Source: a virus
IMG/VR virus record: IMGVR_UViG_3300044294_000109
Coordinates: 1-42,391 of that record
DNA: 42,391 nucleotides
Reading direction: 5' to 3' (one strand)
How positions within the stretch are numbered: the stretch's first letter is position 1; each line of letters begins with the position of its first letter. The position numbers and the translations under genes are program-made. Shown one piece after another: positions 3,074-11,552 of this stretch. The notes under the pieces were generated by a model. The model had not been told where the DNA came from. It searched no databases and was given only the letters and a program-made list of their open reading frames with translations.

Positions 3074-6000
3074 TTATCCAGCAAAAAGATTGTCTGCCAT
3101 ACTATTTACCTCACCAGAAGCAACCACAACCTTAGTTCCTCCTCTCATTGGCATTGGAATTGGAACTTCTTTTTCAATAATCATTGGTTGAACAACAACT
3201 TTGGTTTTTGCCTTATCATAATTCATGGTTTGTTGAAGTCCCTTGAATGCACCTGGAACAACCCCACCACCATGAGCGGCACCAACAATCTTTGCTGCTT
3301 TATATGATAAATCATAATCTCCTTTTCCAATTGGGCCAGATCCATATGTTGCCCAAGGTATATCAAATGCAGTTCCGTCTGTTGGATCACTATAAGTTGG
3401 TTTACCACCAACTGGACCATAGTGCCCACCTGTTGCAGAGTGTTTTCCAACACTCGTAAATCCCTCAAATTCATATGGTTTATAACCAGATGATTTTAAT
3501 TTTTTAAATGCATTAACAGCGGCAGATCTAGAATTAAAACCGAAATGATCGTGAGCATTAATTTGTCCAGCGTGTCCAGCATCATATCCCTTTCTGTTTG
3601 GATTTCCGTGCAACCATTGAACTACTGATCCTTTTGGAACATCCCCCGCAGGACCTTGCTGCTCTTGCCCACCACCTTCTTTTGCTCCTTTGTTTATATC
3701 TTTTTGATTCCAATTCATGGTTTGTTGAAGTCCCTTGAATGCATCTGGAACAACCCCACCACTTGCAAATTTTGCAGTTAAAACATTTTTTACCTGAACA
3801 TTACTCAACCAATCTGCTTCCGATGCCTGAGCTCTATTTTGCAACAGTCCAAGATGCAAATGTGGAACTTTATTGGCAACACCCATTGATCCTATTGTTT
3901 GTCCTGCTTTAATTGGAATCCCAGATTTATTCTCAACTGCACCAGAAAGTGAAGAAAGGTGAGTTCCATAAGCATATTTGATTGTTTTTCCCCCATATTG
4001 AAATGGTTTAGATAATTGAACCAGAAATGAATGTTGCGGTTGATAACCGGGTTTATTTGGATTAGAATCATCCTTCCAAGAGGTATGCCCTGTTTCTGCA
4101 TAGAGTAGGGTACCACTAACAGGAGAAACAATTGGATCCCCTGTTTTTCCAATAATATCTAAACCACTATCAGCAGCATAACCATAACTTCCTCTAACCC
4201 CTGGTGATGATCTTGGAGTAGGATCTTTTAGTCCAAAAGAACCAGAACTTTCTAATATTTCTGCGGGAAAATTTCTACGGTCTCCACGATCATCAACAGC
4301 ACCGCGGCCTAACATTCTACCCTTTTTAACTTTTGATAGTGCTGCTTTAACTTTTTCAGCAGTCATAGCACTGCTTTGTCCTGGATAATAAAATCTACCT
4401 TGTGCGTTTGGAAGAGATGCAAATTCCTGAGACAAACCTTGCATAAACTGTTCGTCACTGATTTCATTCTTCAACCATCTTTCACCACCTCTTCCTTTGA
4501 TGTTAACATTAATAATAATTTTTTCTTGGTTTTCAGGGCTGTAAAGATCTTTATCTGGATTTAAACCTGCTGTTTTGGCTCTATCAACCAAGAATTGTGG
4601 TAGTTGCTGATATTTTCCTACTGCACCAGTCGCTCTTCTTGCCACATCAGCAATAGTCATTTTTGTTGCACCAGGTAAAGTTGTGCCGGGATACATCGCC
4701 TCATAGTTTCCACCAGATTCTTTACCTGCAATCAAATCTAAAAGTGGACCCCAGGTTCCTTCTGTCATACCACCAGGACCACCTCCACCAGGTTCAGGTT
4801 CTCCACCAGGTTCAGGTTCTCCACCAGGTCCAGGTTCACCGCTTTTCTCTTCTTCAAGTTCAAGTTCTATGGATTTAATTTCTTTATCCAAATAATTTGA
4901 TAAAGACATAACAGATTTTTTATTATCTGATGGATTCAAAGAAACAACAGTTGATACAACTTGACCACCTTTTTCAAACTTTAATGCGGAACTTAATTTT
5001 GAGGCAGATGCTGTAATTCCTTTAAACGCATCAAGGTTTGAAAAATTAGTCAGTTGTCCACCAACAGATTCTAAAACTCTACGATCAACTTTCATTCCCA
5101 ACGCAAGTTGAATCGCAGCAAACATCGATCCACCAATTAATGGAACATCTTTTACTTTGTTTGCGAGATTGATCAGTCCTTTAATATAAGATGGTAGTTT
5201 ACTCTCATCACCACCAAATCCAAAAAATGAAAAGAGTTTTTTAACTCCACCTACGATTGCACCACCTATTGAAGATGGTGTTAGTTTTGCAAGATTAATT
5301 TTTGGTATTGGAGGAAGTCTCATCATTCCACCAATACCTGGTAATCCTGCACTTAATTTACCTAAAAGTCCACCAGAAACGTATGAAGTAGCAATAGAAT
5401 CACCAAGAGAAAATGAATCAATATATCCACCAGATTGTTTTTTCTTTATTTGTGCAGAGGCACCTCCAAATATTCCAAATTTATCCCACCAAGGACGTTT
5501 TTCCTCTAATTTTTGCTTATTTGTCTTGGTTGAACTTGATTTTAATTCAGGTTTTTTATCTCCAAAAATCATATCATATAAGACACCACCAACAGCATCT
5601 CCCGCCATACCACCAGCGAGACCACCAAGAAACGTTCCTGCACCAGGAACAACAGATCCAGCAGCAGCACCAACAGCACCCAAAAGAGTAGCACCAATTG
5701 CTCTAAATGCTGCTCGACCGAGACTTTCACCCAAAGCAACGGCAATTGCAAAATCAACCAATCCACCAATAACAGGAAGTCTCTTAACAAGAGGTCTGAT
5801 AAATTTGCCAGCAGATTTTTTTAGTCCTTGTTCACCAAGTTCACCAGCTGCTGGTAAAAGTTTAGGAGAAGTTGCTCCTGTTATTTTAGGTCTTTGTCTT
5901 AAAGGATTTCTAAGATCTGGTCTTCCAGCAGTAGATCCACCCGTCGTTGTAACTCTTGGACGATCTCTAAGAGGATTTCTAAGATCTGGTCTTCCAGCAG

Positions 6001-6958
6001 TAGATCCACCCGTCGTTGTAACTCTTGGACGATCTCTAAGAGGATTTCTAAGATCTGGTCTACCTGCTGCTTTTCCGCCAGAAGTAGTAACCTTTGGTCC
6101 ACCACCTCTTGTTCCTGCGCCAGGACGACCACCTCTTCCACCACCAAATCCTCCACCAGCGGCACCCGCCATAGCAAGTATTAGAGAAAGATTCATTACC
6201 TGGTTAAAGATCTCACCAAATTTGTCAAATGCTTTTGCAGCATTCTCACCACCAAGTTTTTCAACAAAACCACGAGTTGAGTCGTATGCTTTATATCCCC
6301 AATCTATAAAAGTTACAAGACCATTTAATAAGAATCCAGCGGCATCAATTAAAAATTCAATCGCTGGGGCTATAATTTTTGCAAGATCAATTAATTTTGG
6401 TAATAGGGGAACTAATCTAATTGCAATAAATCCCAGTAGAACAGCGGTTATATAATTTTTAATTCCTTCCCAAATGTTACTAAATGGTTTTTTAACCTTA
6501 TTGCCCATTCCTTTAAGAATTCCACTACCACCTTTTTCATATTTTCCTTCTTTTTTCTTTCTTTCAGTGTCAGAACTTTGTTTTGCGAGTTGTTCTTCTT
6601 CTCTTCTTTTTTGAGAAAAAGATCCTTTTAATAGTTTATCAATCTCAATAACTTTATCTTTGATATATCTTACATCTTCTTCAAGAGTTCCTTTTCCCCC
6701 ACCTGATGATGTTTTTGTTGAAGTTTGTGTTCCTACATTTTTTTCAATAGTTTTAGAAAGAGTAGGTGTTAACAGAGGTGTTAACGGTGCTTTTGGTCGA
6801 ACAATAATTGCCGATGATTTTTTATCACCAAAATTTTGACCTACGGTTTTTTTAGATTTTACTTTTAGTAAATTCTTACCGATATTTGCAGTTTTTGCAA
6901 TTTTTGATCCAGAGGGAATCATTTTACCACCAGATCCAGTGAGTTTAGGAAGTGCCAT
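3074..6958 (-). CDS. Giant tail protein with lysozyme-like and M23-like domains
   Basis: 1294 aa. In order: a charged coiled region (about 90-150); a hydrophobic stretch (about 165-220, KPFSNIWEGIKNYITAVLLG onward); Gly-rich linkers with three 23-aa repeats (about 285-355); a glycine-zipper segment (about 415-450); Gly/Pro/Glu linker (about 705-732); a GH104/lambda-lysozyme-like domain (about 735-880, start LLDLIAGKESGGNYEAMYPG, Glu likely catalytic); an M23 endopeptidase-like domain (about 920-1045) ending in HLHLGL; then a 146-aa module (1081-1226) also present in the upstream neighbour. The first M23 zinc ligand position reads DSGLDI rather than H-x-G-x-D, so peptidase activity is doubtful. 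N-terminal architecture is shared with the 1052-aa protein. Likely role: tape-measure-associated or hub protein that opens the cell wall. A strong ribosome site (AGGAGGT) precedes the ATG. Confidence 0.7.
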   Translation of the reverse strand: MALPKLTGSGGKMIPSGSKIAKTANIGKNLLKVKSKKTVGQNFGDKKSSAIIVRPKAPLTPLLTPTLSKTIEKNVGTQTSTKTSSGGGKGTLEEDVRYIKDKVIEIDKLLKGSFSQKRREEEQLAKQSSDTERKKKEGKYEKGGSGILKGMGNKVKKPFSNIWEGIKNYITAVLLGFIAIRLVPLLPKLIDLAKIIAPAIEFLIDAAGFLLNGLVTFIDWGYKAYDSTRGFVEKLGGENAAKAFDKFGEIFNQVMNLSLILAMAGAAGGGFGGGRGGRPGAGTRGGGPKVTTSGGKAAGRPDLRNPLRDRPRVTTTGGSTAGRPDLRNPLRDRPRVTTTGGSTAGRPDLRNPLRQRPKITGATSPKLLPAAGELGEQGLKKSAGKFIRPLVKRLPVIGGLVDFAIAVALGESLGRAAFRAIGATLLGAVGAAAGSVVPGAGTFLGGLAGGMAGDAVGGVLYDMIFGDKKPELKSSSTKTNKQKLEEKRPWWDKFGIFGGASAQIKKKQSGGYIDSFSLGDSIATSYVSGGLLGKLSAGLPGIGGMMRLPPIPKINLAKLTPSSIGGAIVGGVKKLFSFFGFGGDESKLPSYIKGLINLANKVKDVPLIGGSMFAAIQLALGMKVDRRVLESVGGQLTNFSNLDAFKGITASASKLSSALKFEKGGQVVSTVVSLNPSDNKKSVMSLSNYLDKEIKSIELELEEEKSGEPGPGGEPEPGGEPEPGGGGPGGMTEGTWGPLLDLIAGKESGGNYEAMYPGTTLPGATKMTIADVARRATGAVGKYQQLPQFLVDRAKTAGLNPDKDLYSPENQEKIIINVNIKGRGGERWLKNEISDEQFMQGLSQEFASLPNAQGRFYYPGQSSAMTAEKVKAALSKVKKGRMLGRGAVDDRGDRRNFPAEILESSGSFGLKDPTPRSSPGVRGSYGYAADSGLDIIGKTGDPIVSPVSGTLLYAETGHTSWKDDSNPNKPGYQPQHSFLVQLSKPFQYGGKTIKYAYGTHLSSLSGAVENKSGIPIKAGQTIGSMGVANKVPHLHLGLLQNRAQASEADWLSNVQVKNVLTAKFASGGVVPDAFKGLQQTMNWNQKDINKGAKEGGGQEQQGPAGDVPKGSVVQWLHGNPNRKGYDAGHAGQINAHDHFGFNSRSAAVNAFKKLKSSGYKPYEFEGFTSVGKHSATGGHYGPVGGKPTYSDPTDGTAFDIPWATYGSGPIGKGDYDLSYKAAKIVGAAHGGGVVPGAFKGLQQTMNYDKAKTKVVVQPMIIEKEVPIPMPMRGGTKVVVASGEVNSMADNLFAG
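3220..3762 (-). repeat. 51-bp direct repeats flanking the shared module
   Basis: Bases 3220-3270 and 3712-3762 are 51-bp direct copies that differ at one position (C versus T, near 3252/3744). They encode the peptide around FKGLQQTMN and lie 492 bp apart (164 codons), bracketing the module that is also found in the neighbouring gene. This is the expected product of a tandem duplication or of recombination that inserted the cassette in frame. Confidence 0.85.
3279..3718 (-). repeat. 440-bp module, copy 1 (partner at 7695-8134)
   Basis: Nearly identical without indels to 7695-8134. The encoded module of about 146 residues begins at MNWNQKDINKGAKEGG and ends at SYKAAKIVGA. Conserved polar residues cluster in HDHF, GGHYGPVGG and DPTDGTAFDIPW, which hints at a metal site or hydrolase but is not a motif I can name. 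Differences between the copies are scattered substitutions concentrated around the segment before GGHYGPVGG. Confidence 0.85.
5890..6105 (-). repeat. Three tandem 69-bp (23-aa) repeats
   Basis: A unit of 69 bp recurs with starts near 5903, 5972 and 6041. It encodes GRPDLRNPLR-D/Q-RPRVTTTGG-type linker peptides inside the 1294-aa protein. The two central units are virtually identical in DNA, which suggests recent slippage or unequal recombination. The repeats probably form a flexible linker. Confidence 0.85.
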
Positions 6959-6970
6959 TTATTTTACCTC

Positions 6971-9900
6971 CTATACAAGACCATACATGGTTTTTGCATT
7001 TCTTCTAGAAGAGTTAGAAGAAACACTGACACTTGGAACTTTGGTTGCAAATCCTGCTCCTCCGCCGCCGGGCCCTCCACCCATGGATTGAACAATTGGA
7101 GGTAAAGTGGAAATAATAGAATCATCAGACATTACTGGTTGACCAACTGCCATCGATGATCTAGAAAGAGTCCCAAGTTTAGCAGCAGTTGAGTTACTAT
7201 CTGTTGAAGCAACCAATCTGTCGATTGCATTTGGTCCACCAAGTCTTGTTACTGTATCGACAGGAAGAATATATTCACCAGGTTGAGTTAAAACTGCTTG
7301 TCTATCTGCTGTTGCACCAGGAATACTCATTCCAGTATTTTCAGTAATTCCACCACCCTGATATCCAAGTTCTTTCATCATTGCTCTTCTTCGAGCTAAA
7401 TTAGCACCAAGACCTTGTTGATTGGCATAGTCTGTTGGTTTTGAAGATCTATGCTTTTCCACGACTTTACCCCAGTTCCATGGCATCCAAGATGGACCCA
7501 CCATTCCACCACCCTGATATCCAAGTTCTTTCAGCATTGCATTTCTTCGAGCCCAATTAGCACCAAGACCTTGTTGATTGGCATAGTCTGTTGGTTTTGA
7601 AGATCTATGCTTTTCCACGACTTTACCCCAGTTCCATGGCATCCAAGATGGACCCACCATTCCACCACCTTGCATTTTTTTAACTTGTGCAGAAGCACCA
7701 ACAATCTTTGCTGCTTTATATGATAAATCATAATCTCCTTTTCCAATTGGGCCAGATCCATATGTTGCCCAAGGTATATCAAATGCAGTTCCGTCTGTTG
7801 GATCACTATAAGTTGGTTCACCACCAACTGGACCATAGTGCCCACCAGTTGGAGAGTGGCCTCCAACACGGCCAAATCCCTCAAATTCATTTGGGTCATA
7901 ACCAGATGATTTTAATTTTTTAAATGCATTAACAGCGGCAGATCTAGAATTAAAACTGAAATGATCATGAGCATTAATTTGTCCAGCGTGGTCAGCATCA
8001 TATCCCTTTCTGTTTGGATTTCCATGCAACCATTGAACTACTGATCCTTTTGGAACATCCCCCGCAGGACCTTGCTGCTCTGGTCTACCACCTTCTTTTG
8101 CTCCTTTGTTTATATCTTTTTGATTCCAATTCATCTTGACTTGTCCAGTTTTTGGATCAACAATTGATGAAAAACGATTGATAGCATCCTCAATCATTTT
8201 GAGTGGTTTGGTTTTGTCAGTTAATCCACTCTTACCCATAGTTCTCTCTATGGTTTGCTGTGGTCTACCTATGGGTCCTGGTGCTGCTTTCTTCGGCAAA
8301 TTAGCAGATTGAATAATTGATAATGCAGTATTACCAACCTTTAATGCTTGATCATAAAGTCCAGCACCAAATTGCGTACCAGACTGCATAAGTTTTGATA
8401 CATCTTTTTGTAGTCTATCTCCTTTTAAATAATTTTGACCTTGTACAATTAAATTTTGTCCTTGATTTGCTAATCCTTGTGCAAATCCTTGTCTTTGATT
8501 TGCAAATCTTTGTCTCTGGGCATTGTATCTTTGCGTTCTATACTCATCTACAGTATGAATATTACCACCAGGTTGAACATTTTTAGATACAAATTGACTA
8601 GGTTGTTGAGATATACTGTCATACATTCTTTTAAGTTTATTTCCCCTTTCACCCATGTAAGTTCCACCAGCAGGAACTTCATTTCCCTCCCCTATCATTC
8701 CACCATTTGCAAAAGCAGGAAGAACTAATCCACCACCAGAAGCAGTCTGAACATTCTTTGCTAGTTTAGGTTTATTTGCATTAGAACCACCATACTTTTT
8801 GTTTAATGACAGGAAGAAATTAGATCCTAATGCATCTACTGTTTCCTTGTTAATAACAACTTCACCTGGTCGAGCAGCAATCAACTGAGTATCAACTCCT
8901 GCTCCTCTAATATCAGTTCCACTTGCTGTGGTAACTTTTCCACCTTTACGGAAACCATAAGACTTAGTTTGTCCTGTATCCATTCGATACAGTTGCTCTT
9001 TTGCCTCTGCGTCTTGTCCCGTTAATCTCTCATAGAAATTTGGATTATTTGCTTTTCTTTCAAGATCTGCTCTTACTTTATTCGTTCCTTTTTCTGCAAC
9101 TGCTTTATCGGTCTTTCTTTCTTGCTCATCAACTGTTTGTGGGAATAGCTTAGGTATTACTGCACCAGCAGAAAACAATGCTGCCCCAGCTAACAATGGA
9201 TTTTTTGCCATCGCGGTGAGTAATTTTGGAACAACCGAAATTGCCATTCTGGCTGTCCACATTCCAATCTTAGCAATAAATCCTATGGCAAATCTAGTAA
9301 ATGAATTACCAAAAATTAAATATGCTCCAAGAAGTGCTGGCCACCAATCCTTTAAGAATCTACCAATACTTTGTATTTTACCTTGATTTGATGGATCTCC
9401 AATCCAATCCATCAATTTAACAAACGCTCTTCCTAAAAAGAGAGCAGTCAAATAATTCAAAATTCCATCCAGTATATTACTGAATGGTTTTACAGTTTTG
9501 TCAAATGCCTTTTTAATTTTATTATCTTTCTCTTTCTCAACCTCTTCTTCTTTTCCTGAACGTTTTTTATTTTCTGCCCCTAGTCTTTGAAGTTCTGCTT
9601 GTTTGCCAAAGAACTTATTTTGATCACTTAGAGTGTTGAAGATTGAATCAACAGTTTTTCTAATTGCTCTAACATTTTTTTCAAGACTATCAGATTCCAA
9701 AAGACCAGTTGCTCGTTTTAGAGTTACATCTTTTACATTAACCTTTATGACCTCTGGATCTTCTTTTGTTGGTGGTTTAAGTGCAAGAGGAGAAACTCTT
9801 GTTCCTGGCAACATTTTAATACTTGGGCCACCTGGTGGTGGAGTTCCAGTTCCATCAGTCCCAGATCCACGACCTACCTGTGTTTTTGGTCCACTTTCAA

Positions 9901-10129
9901 CACCTAAGAAATTTTCTATAAAATTCTTAAAAGCAACTTTATCTCGACTTGCTTTAAAGGCTTTCTTTCTCTCTTCGGGTGTTAATTGCTCACCAGCAAT
10001 AGTTCCCTCAGTAGCAATTTCTTTACGAAGTCTTTCAAAATTTTCAGCACCAAAAAACTCTTTGGGATCAACTGCACCGCCCCTAACGGTAACTTTTCTT
10101 TTTGGTGGACGACCCCTAAAACTTGCCAT
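6971..10129 (-). CDS. Tape-measure-like tail protein (1052 aa)
   Basis: Directly follows the gp26/gp51-type chaperone pair, the usual place of the tape measure gene in tailed phages. Order: Gly/Pro-rich head; charged helical segment (about 145-215); KPFSNILDGILNYLTALFLG and further hydrophobic helices (about 220-325); then Gly-rich linkers. Two motifs of the type PGE-x-V/I-(N/P)-x-x-x-V-x-x-L/G (RPGEVVINKETVDALG near residue 415 and QPGEYILPVDTVTRLGGPN near 945) are common in tape measure proteins. A module of 146 aa (666-811) is shared with the 1294-aa neighbour, followed by two 52-aa tandem repeats (823-926). The ATG overlaps the upstream stop as TAATG. The tape-measure call is inference from position and motifs; T4's gp29 is shorter (590 aa). 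Confidence 0.65.
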   Translation of the reverse strand: MASFRGRPPKRKVTVRGGAVDPKEFFGAENFERLRKEIATEGTIAGEQLTPEERKKAFKASRDKVAFKNFIENFLGVESGPKTQVGRGSGTDGTGTPPPGGPSIKMLPGTRVSPLALKPPTKEDPEVIKVNVKDVTLKRATGLLESDSLEKNVRAIRKTVDSIFNTLSDQNKFFGKQAELQRLGAENKKRSGKEEEVEKEKDNKIKKAFDKTVKPFSNILDGILNYLTALFLGRAFVKLMDWIGDPSNQGKIQSIGRFLKDWWPALLGAYLIFGNSFTRFAIGFIAKIGMWTARMAISVVPKLLTAMAKNPLLAGAALFSAGAVIPKLFPQTVDEQERKTDKAVAEKGTNKVRADLERKANNPNFYERLTGQDAEAKEQLYRMDTGQTKSYGFRKGGKVTTASGTDIRGAGVDTQLIAARPGEVVINKETVDALGSNFFLSLNKKYGGSNANKPKLAKNVQTASGGGLVLPAFANGGMIGEGNEVPAGGTYMGERGNKLKRMYDSISQQPSQFVSKNVQPGGNIHTVDEYRTQRYNAQRQRFANQRQGFAQGLANQGQNLIVQGQNYLKGDRLQKDVSKLMQSGTQFGAGLYDQALKVGNTALSIIQSANLPKKAAPGPIGRPQQTIERTMGKSGLTDKTKPLKMIEDAINRFSSIVDPKTGQVKMNWNQKDINKGAKEGGRPEQQGPAGDVPKGSVVQWLHGNPNRKGYDADHAGQINAHDHFSFNSRSAAVNAFKKLKSSGYDPNEFEGFGRVGGHSPTGGHYGPVGGEPTYSDPTDGTAFDIPWATYGSGPIGKGDYDLSYKAAKIVGASAQVKKMQGGGMVGPSWMPWNWGKVVEKHRSSKPTDYANQQGLGANWARRNAMLKELGYQGGGMVGPSWMPWNWGKVVEKHRSSKPTDYANQQGLGANLARRRAMMKELGYQGGGITENTGMSIPGATADRQAVLTQPGEYILPVDTVTRLGGPNAIDRLVASTDSNSTAAKLGTLSRSSMAVGQPVMSDDSIISTLPPIVQSMGGGPGGGGAGFATKVPSVSVSSNSSRRNAKTMYGLV
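7351..7662 (-). repeat. Two tandem 156-bp (52-aa) repeats
   Basis: Copies at 7351-7506 and 7507-7662 differ at only a few bases. Each encodes a unit starting QGGGMVGPSWMPWNWG and ending near MKELGY. The Trp-rich start and basic helix look like a small folded or surface-binding element rather than plain linker. The period is a multiple of three, so the frame is kept. Confidence 0.9.
7695..8134 (-). repeat. 440-bp module, copy 2 (partner at 3279-3718)
   Basis: Second copy of the module shared with the 1294-aa protein. Same length, no indels. In this gene it is not bracketed by the 51-bp direct repeats and is followed by the tandem 52-aa units, so this copy may be the donor (inference). Confidence 0.85.
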
Positions 10130-10314
10130 TAGAATGTTGAATGCTTCGCGTGTTCCTGCTTCATTTTCTCTTCTTCAATATGATTTTTAAGGAAAGTGAC
10201 GTAAATATCCCGTTCCCAGGGAATCATATTTTCAATTTCAGTCAAAGAATATTTATGGAACTGCATTAAGGAAAAATTCAACTCATAGTAGTTCATCAGA
10301 TCCATGTGGATCAT
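10129..10314 (-). CDS. gp51-like small ORF, probable frameshift extension of gp26
   Basis: 61 aa, acidic-to-basic helical, with the patch SLTEIENMIPWERDIYVTFL followed by EEEKMKQEH. This pattern resembles C-terminal extensions of tail assembly chaperones. It begins 2 nt after the gp26 stop in the -1 frame relative to gp26, and the frame is open back to the slippery site at 10323-10329. It may be made alone: the ATG at 10305 (Met4) has TAGGA about nine bases upstream, whereas the ATG at 10314 has the AGGA too close. In T4, gene 51 follows gene 26, so gp51 is the positional equivalent although T4 gp51 is about 250 aa. The stop overlaps the next gene's ATG. Confidence 0.7.
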   Translation of the reverse strand: MIHMDLMNYYELNFSLMQFHKYSLTEIENMIPWERDIYVTFLKNHIEEEKMKQEHAKHSTF

Positions 10315-10316
10315 TC

Positions 10317-11036
10317 CTAACCGAAAAAACTGGCAAGACCCTCCAATACGACAACACTACTTTTTCCCGTGTTTGGATTTTTTACTTTCACATCATGACT
10401 GAGTTTTGGCATTGTTTCAAAGAATGATTCAATACCTTTAAACTGAGTAGAATTCATTGATTCAAGGAAATCAACAATTTCTTGTTTTGTACAATCAGCA
10501 GCCGCCCATGCCTCCTCCTCGGTATAGATTTTATCTACACATGAAGCAATTAGTTCAAAGGATTGATCCATTTGATTTCCTTCTTTGAAATCAAAGTTTG
10601 CTTTTATAAATTGATCAAGAGATGGATACTTCATTTCCACCATGATTGAATCATCAACCTTAAACTTGGTTGTATGTTTTGGATCTTTTTTAACCTTAAT
10701 ATCTTCCAGATTAATCTTTATTGGAACCTGAGTCTCTTCATCATCGGGACAAATAATATTAACTTCAACTTCTTCTCCAACAGATTTTCCACGAATATTA
10801 AGGAAGAGATATTCAATATCAAAAGTTGGCAGATCTTCTACCTTAATTCCTTTTGTTTGAATACAATTTTCGATAACAGTTTTTACTGCTCTTGTAATTT
10901 CCTTTGTGTCTTCTGTTTCCATTGCCAGAACAAGAAGTTTCTCCTCTTTAACAAGAAAAGGTCTGAATTCGATCTTTTGTTCTGTGGATGGCAAAGTCAA
11001 CTCGTATGATGGTGTTGCAATTTGTGGTAAAGGCAT
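10317..11036 (-). CDS. gp26: gp26-like baseplate/tail assembly chaperone
   Basis: 239 aa. Features of the T4 gp26 family: N-terminal strand-rich start (LTLPSTEQKIEFRPFLVKEE then KLLVLAMETEDTKEI), a central IPxFDIEYLFLNIRGKSVGE-like segment and an alpha-helical C-terminal half ending GLASFFG. Homologues are annotated as baseplate hub assembly proteins, and the family is thought to be the T4 counterpart of lambda gpG-type chaperones. It is the first gene after a T4-type late promoter (11064-11071). The last codons contain a slippery heptamer, so part of the product is probably extended by the following ORF. Confidence 0.85.
   Translation of the reverse strand: MPLPQIATPSYELTLPSTEQKIEFRPFLVKEEKLLVLAMETEDTKEITRAVKTVIENCIQTKGIKVEDLPTFDIEYLFLNIRGKSVGEEVEVNIICPDDEETQVPIKINLEDIKVKKDPKHTTKFKVDDSIMVEMKYPSLDQFIKANFDFKEGNQMDQSFELIASCVDKIYTEEEAWAAADCTKQEIVDFLESMNSTQFKGIESFFETMPKLSHDVKVKNPNTGKSSVVVLEGLASFFG
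10323..10329 (-). promoter_or_regulatory. Slippery heptamer T-TTT-TTC for -1 frameshifting
   Basis: In the gp26 frame the last codons are AGT TTT TTC GGT TAG. The heptamer T TTT TTC fits X-XXY-YYZ exactly in phase. A -1 slip continues CGG TTA GGA ATG straight into the 61-aa ORF, giving a fusion of about 300 aa. The arrangement matches the conserved G/GT frameshift of tail assembly genes in other tailed phages. I did not fold the downstream RNA. Confidence 0.7.
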
Positions 11037-11063
11037 GATGTCTTATAGAATGTTCGGTGTGAT

Positions 11064-11071
11064 TATTTATA
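11064..11071 (-). promoter_or_regulatory. T4-type late promoter TATAAATA for gp26 operon
   Basis: A perfect TATAAATA on the minus strand, 28 bp from the gp26 ATG, in the only non-coding gap of this block. It would drive gp26 through gp5. Confidence 0.75.
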
Positions 11072-11137
11072 GAGGTTGTGCCAGAAGGTCAAGTGTCCAC
11101 TTTACTTTCCATTAGGACAATTGATGCAGTATAATAT

Positions 11138-11398
11138 ATGAGTAAACAAACAACTCTTATGCGTCAAATCTTTTTCGGTCTTGTTTTTCTTTATGGAGTC
11201 GGTTTGTCTTCTTACTTTGGATCTTGGGGAATCCGTGATATGGTTGCCCTAGAAAAAGCCGTCTCTGTTGGTGCTCAGCATGAAGAAATGCGTCATCGAA
11301 TGAATGTTGCTGCTGAGGGTAACTGGTTCTTGTTGGCAAACTTAATTGCTGTTACTGGTGCTCTTGGAATGATTGGTTCGGTAAAAAAAGATGATTAA
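11138..11398 (+). CDS. Small two-helix membrane protein
   Basis: 86 aa with two hydrophobic segments: about residues 10-30 (IFFGLVFLYGVGLSSYFG) and 62-80 (WFLLANLIAVTGALGMIGSV), separated by a charged loop of about 30 residues. Both ends are short and polar, so it should be an inner or thylakoid membrane hairpin. I do not recognise a family. It lies on the strand opposite to the tail genes, and its stop overlaps the next small gene by 8 nt, so the two form a unit. The sequence TATAAT sits only 3 bp before the ATG, too close for a normal leader; if it is the -10 box, translation would begin at Met8 (11159). Confidence 0.7.
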   Translation: MSKQTTLMRQIFFGLVFLYGVGLSSYFGSWGIRDMVALEKAVSVGAQHEEMRHRMNVAAEGNWFLLANLIAVTGALGMIGSVKKDD

Positions 11399-11528
11399 AA
11401 TCTTAAAATATGCTGCCATCTCTTACGCTTTATTACTTGCGATAGTTTATCTAATTGCAATGATTATTCCAACACCATCAGCTGATATTCGTGAAGGATT
11501 TGCCCCAGAATTTTCATCAAAACAGTGA
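11391..11528 (+). CDS. 45-aa membrane-anchored or secreted peptide
   Basis: Starts MIKILKYAAISYALLLAIVY: two lysines followed by about 20 hydrophobic residues, then a polar tail (PTPSADIREGFAPEFSSKQ) with no cysteine. This is a signal-anchor or signal peptide layout with a short exposed tail. The ATG lies inside the end of the preceding gene and the stop is the first base-pairs of the terminator hairpin. No family recognised. Confidence 0.6.
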   Translation: MIKILKYAAISYALLLAIVYLIAMIIPTPSADIREGFAPEFSSKQ

Positions 11529-11552
11529 GGGTTATCAAGACCCTCTTTTTTT
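11527..11552 (+). terminator. Rho-independent terminator of the plus-strand cassette
   Basis: GAGGGT and ACCCTC form a 6-bp stem around a 7-nt loop, followed by seven T. The hairpin begins within the stop region of the 45-aa ORF and the T-run overlaps the stop codon of the convergent minus-strand gene. It works only for plus-strand transcription. Confidence 0.85.

Follow-up and report, generated by a model that had tools for sequence, protein, structure and literature searches.

Bacteriophage lambda makes its tail assembly chaperone in a short and a long form, gpG and gpGT, by a -1 slip of the ribosome shortly before the first gene ends, with the extension of gpGT encoded in an overlapping frame (Levin 1993; Xu 2004, 2013), and neither product is present in virions (PMC5009743). 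The -1 cassette of Escherichia coli dnaX combines a slippery heptamer with an upstream Shine-Dalgarno (SD)-like stimulator and a downstream stem-loop (PMC5009743). A poly-T site that closes the TAC-N gene is the predicted place of a -1 slip in Pseudomonas phage Adele, and the same paper states that poly-T slippery signals are known in the TAC-N genes of T4-like phages (PMC12846349). The PRFect paper reports that some T4-like phages dispense with frameshifting and carry the short form and the fused long form as genes of their own.

The locus analyzed here lies on the minus strand of a 42,391-nt sequence from a T4-like cyanophage, referred to as the window. For this gene family, Vladimirov, Gautam and Davidson (2022, Virology 566:9) reportedly found several T4-like groups to have conserved the frameshift, with T4 itself using the separate genes 26 and 51, and papers citing that work are in agreement. 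The central idea for T4-like phages is therefore prior art, while the stimulators and the non-canonical site in Ackermannviridae described below may be new details; no cyanophage-specific report of a gp26 frameshift was found in the literature searched.

From its sequence, we consider it highly probable that a -1 slip at this locus gives rise to two forms of a tail assembly chaperone, namely gp26 itself and a 302-aa fusion, TAC-NC. Such an arrangement would resemble lambda gpG/gpGT in its short and long forms, slip position late in the first gene and overlapping extension frame; it differs in having another slippery sequence and an SD-like element, and the two show no sequence homology as far as tested. 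The same three elements as in dnaX are found, but dnaX shifts at about 50% to yield a shorter product, whereas the slip predicted here would yield a longer one. Like Adele, the locus has its poly-T at the end of TAC-N, although Adele carries a GTTTTT motif and belongs to another phage family.

A conserved heptamer at the end of gp26

The gp26 gene (10317-11036, minus strand) encodes the 239-aa zero-frame product, assigned as the short chaperone TAC-N by its matches to PF12322 (E 7e-77; 258 bits against a cut-off of 24.5) and phrog_150 (E 3e-82). Its 3′ end reads in frame GAG GGT CTT GCC AGT TTT TTC GGT TAG, with the stop codon used in the absence of a slip at 10317-10319. An earlier note on this DNA had proposed a programmed -1 frameshift joining gp26 to a 61-aa open reading frame (10129-10314, ATG at 10314), and its reading of the site agrees with the sequence: the heptamer T_TTT_TTC occupies 10323-10329 in the phase X_XXY_YYZ, and after a slip that rereads the C at 10323 the -1 frame continues as CGG TTA GGA ATG ATC CAC ATG..., open to the stop at 10131-10129. 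The 64 codons added in this way (TAC-C, 10129-10323, minus strand) contain the 61-aa ORF, which matches phrog_634 (E 6e-25), a family labelled 'baseplate hub assembly catalyst'. The predicted TAC-NC would span 10129-11036 on the minus strand as a join of 11036-10323 and 10323-10129. In the proposed mechanism, the majority of ribosomes would end at the TAG and release gp26, while a minority would slip on U_UUU_UUC, with two tRNA-Phe re-pairing one base back, and would go on to make the 302-aa form with its additional helical domain.

Upon counting, we found about 50 in-phase X_XXY_YYZ heptamers in the 30 kb of coding sequence of the window, and we rejected the heptamer by itself as evidence. 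Its conservation in relatives, which the earlier note had set beforehand as a test, is well above chance expectation. The pattern T_TTT_TT[C/T/G] is kept 10 or 7 bases ahead of the stop in 182 of 184 distinct loci, a set that takes in annotated cyanophages, Ochrobactrum phage OC, Pseudomonas phage Milchi, Aeromonas phage 65.2 and Sinorhizobium phage phiM9, and T_TTT_TTC stands ten bases upstream of the gp26 stop in all 80 of the closest IMG/VR relatives. Thinning the relatives to less than 90% identity left 121 loci, 119 of which keep the heptamer; these loci share ancestry, so their counts are not independent, and the controls on the same loci carry equal relatedness. By comparison, just 0.05% of codons in gp26 bodies have an in-phase T6, and the 3′ end of the tail-tube gene, the upstream neighbour, has any in-phase heptamer in only 6 of 86 loci. 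The codon 5′ of the heptamer ends in T throughout the dereplicated loci (AGT, TCT, GCT, AAT, GAT, GGT or ACT), while specifying any of six amino acids (Ser, Ala, Asn, Asp, Gly and Thr), and the first Phe codon of the heptamer is TTT in 119 of 119 loci against a background of 73% (TTC makes up 27% of Phe codons in the family).

A homopolymer of this kind could also change the frame in the transcript and not on the ribosome, given that a single U added to the run of six T's gives the same frame. Slippage by bacterial RNA polymerase generally needs longer runs, however, and here the run is exactly six in 110 of the 119 loci, with lengthening rare. The selection on the SD-like element and the hairpin, described below, likewise suits a ribosomal event, and we regard transcriptional slippage as extremely improbable.

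The -1 frame and its missing starts

Along the aligned loci, codon-position entropy and variability change from the gp26 pattern to a -1 pattern, with the switch at the heptamer. Past the slip, the -1 frame is open for a median of 63 codons (minimum 44), and the +1 frame is closed after a median of 8. Some loci have a -1 frame that extends just 6 bases beyond the reread base in the upstream direction, which places the slip within the heptamer. Most loci conserve R-[IVL]-[AGS] right after the slip, ahead of any ATG, followed downstream by a TAC-C motif that reads about H..L..YY..NFALMQ.HKYSLTE.ENM.PWERE.Y.

As an alternative, gp51 could arise as a 61-aa protein of its own, through reinitiation at the ATG at 10314 just past the gp26 stop, with the SD-like sequence retaining the 30S subunit. 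The ATG does come right past the stop in the window, many relatives have one nearby, and SD sequences ahead of gene ends may help coupled restarts (PMC5009743). In 36 of the 119 loci (approximately 30%), however, the first ATG of the -1 frame comes at least 11 codons in, inside the conserved domain, and with so many late or missing ATGs a separate start cannot account for the family. A well-placed start of its own for the 61-aa ORF, which the earlier note, in combination with a lack of fusion peptides, had named as speaking against frameshifting, is thus not a conserved feature. Reinitiation also leaves both the heptamer and the T-ending codon before it unexplained, and the conservation begins at the slip, ahead of the ATG. 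Furthermore, about 24 bases separate the SD-like core from the ATG, a spacing too wide for ordinary initiation. We consider reinitiation very improbable; judging from these sequence patterns, a one-base backward slip of the ribosome shortly before the gp26 stop, with some of the longer fusion as its product, is very probable.

Existing annotations vary at this position. The records of S-CAM1, Aeromonas phage 65.2 and VmeM-32 have no annotated gene at the -1 frame. Among five annotated cyanophage records, gp51 appears as a separate gene with differing starts and is omitted in one, and no joined CDS is given. With a frameshift at this site, gp51 would be mis-annotated as a separate gene, or overlooked, in many cyanophage records.

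Putative stimulators on both sides of the slip

Upstream of the heptamer, the SD-like sequence GGAGGG (10339-10344, minus strand) has a predicted duplex energy of -9.8 kcal/mol with the anti-SD, and its GAGG lies 14 to 11 bases 5′ of the heptamer (14 to 10 for GAGGG). Codon choice across the family favors this pairing: the Glu codon of the element is GAG in 72% of cases versus a background of 27%, and the mean pairing energy to the 16S tail is -7.13 kcal/mol versus -5.63 kcal/mol in a synonymous null (sd 0.136), a difference of approximately 11 sd. A scan for 16S pairing farther upstream in gp26 gave |z| of at most 3.3 everywhere. This codon choice supports an SD-like stimulator, which would pair with the 16S rRNA of the translating ribosome and so aid the slip.

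Downstream, we folded a 36-base stretch that begins 12 bases past the heptamer start, at the end of the stop codon. Its family folding energy has a z of about -13 against the synonymous null, and the signal is local to the site; elsewhere the scan reaches at best about -6 in gp26 and -4.6 farther along the -1 frame. In the window, the stem-loop GATCC-ACAT-GGATC (10299-10312, minus strand) follows the heptamer by 10 bases. Within the window's clade, its 5-pair stem GATCC/GGATC is paired in 80.5% of cells, with double changes in 4 of the 5 pairs; no shuffle reached the observed pairing or the observed covariation score, and slid versions of the stem scored lower. The relatives of P-SSM2 have an 11-pair hairpin instead, and hairpins differ from clade to clade. 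A single in-register hairpin common to all clades was rejected, as RNAalifold gave one only in the P-SSM2 group. The window's own 5-bp hairpin, taken alone, was not significant against synonymous or shuffled versions (z -0.7 and -1.2), and it was set aside as evidence. The downstream folding called for in the earlier note therefore gave a clear signal family-wide but not in the window's own hairpin. Backed by the synonymous-codon bias of the family, a downstream hairpin is supported as a second stimulator, and it would aid the slip in most relatives. The gp26 cassette offers a testable frameshift system for marine cyanobacteria.

Counterparts in T4 and other phages, and the neighboring genes

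Focusing on T4, we found that its gp51 (249 aa) carries a PF12322 domain at residues 1-201 (E 4e-52), while residues 208-248 match the 61-aa ORF at 35% over 46 aa, a similarity also detected by profile and through phrog_634. The TAC-N profile matches T4 gp26 along its length, with the alignment reaching the same terminal FF. Because T4 gp51 thus joins a gp26-like domain to a homologue of the 61-aa ORF, the separate T4 genes appear to encode what these phages would make by slipping; by sequence, T4 gp26 is the counterpart of the short product and gp51 that of the predicted long one. The earlier note had held that T4 gene 51 follows gene 26 in the same way, which is wrong: genes 26 and 51 of T4 are divergent, and gp51 has its own gp26-like domain. 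Its functional comparison, in which cyanophages would slip where T4 has two genes, was right even though the gene arrangement it described was not, and its analogy to lambda G and GT gains support from the two-part composition of T4 gp51. No slippery site is present at the end of gene 26 in OLB35, a close relative of T4. The correspondence also bears on a puzzle noted in 2010 by Sullivan et al.: at only about 20% of the T4 gp51 length, its cyanophage counterpart is missing the first ~200 residues (PMC3037559). The cyanophage protein would be short because gp26 supplies the missing part through the slip.

Several phages lack the U6 heptamer, including the Ackermannviridae S118, Magnus, XF4, SD25 and Kuja, the Vibrio phages K369 and K364, and Pseudomonas phage Cygsa01. 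These have [ACG]TT TT[CT] NNN TAA at the homologous place and a TAC-C-like -1 frame, with the TAC-C match below threshold for K364 and Kuja, and a start codon for that frame is often absent. In the 15 S118-like loci, the -1 frame extends upstream for just 9-21 bases, and its first ATG lies 13 codons in. A scan for relatives of Vibrio phage K369 found none. The pattern suggests, for Ackermannviridae and for certain Vibrio and Pseudomonas phages, a non-canonical -1 site at which a single tRNA-Phe could slip on [ACG]UU_UUY before the last sense codon. Tentatively, and with slightly less than even confidence, we propose that the SD-like element, U6 and hairpin form an ancient signal, lost in T4 as the fusion turned into a stand-alone gene 51 and reshaped in Ackermannviridae and in some Vibrio and Pseudomonas phages.

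The occurrence of slipping, its rate and the role of the products as tail chaperones are inferred from lambda G/GT and T4. On the lambda model, gp26 and TAC-NC would each coat the tape measure protein and be absent from the finished virion, and recruitment of tail tube subunits would fall to the extension. The slip could also be real and the pair serve as a baseplate hub chaperone, in a role other than tape-measure coating: hub assembly chaperone is the catalogued role of T4 gp26 and gp51 (PMC3004832), and the gene after the pair in the window has no tape-measure match. The two-form architecture is nevertheless the same as that of lambda G/GT, and tail assembly chaperones in T4-like phages have already been assigned in publications, which makes a hub role unlikely in our estimate.

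Structure predictions were compared with the tail assembly chaperone reading. For the AlphaFold model of gp26 (pLDDT 88), the HK97 tail assembly chaperone 2ob9 had the top probability among the listed PDB hits (0.60; E 1.4, TM 0.22/0.45), a likeness that is only a hint. The AF2 model of TAC-C is helical (pLDDT 84), and a fold search with it returned no structural match. In a sequence search of solved structures, gp26 had no match and those of TAC-C were at chance level only.

Immediately 3′ of TAC-C, a 1052-aa ORF (6971-10129, minus strand) has a start that overlaps the TAC-C stop (TAATG) and is, by position, a plausible candidate for the tape measure gene. It matches unknown-function families only (phrog_35029) and has no membrane segment above threshold. 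Its translation includes a near-perfect tandem repeat of about 52 aa (GGGMVGPSWMPWNWGKVVEKHRSSKPTDYANQQGLGAN...). A 1294-aa ORF at 3074-6958 has a Peptidase_M23 match slightly below the Pfam cut-off along with PHROG matches to endolysin, tail-lysin and tape-measure families, and this ORF could be the true tape measure or a tail lysin. On the other side of the locus, the gap of about 500 bp between gp26 and the tail tube gene (11037-11550) contains two small opposite-strand ORFs, 11138-11398 and 11391-11528; the corresponding spacing in S-SM2 and P-SSM2 is about 40-55 bp.
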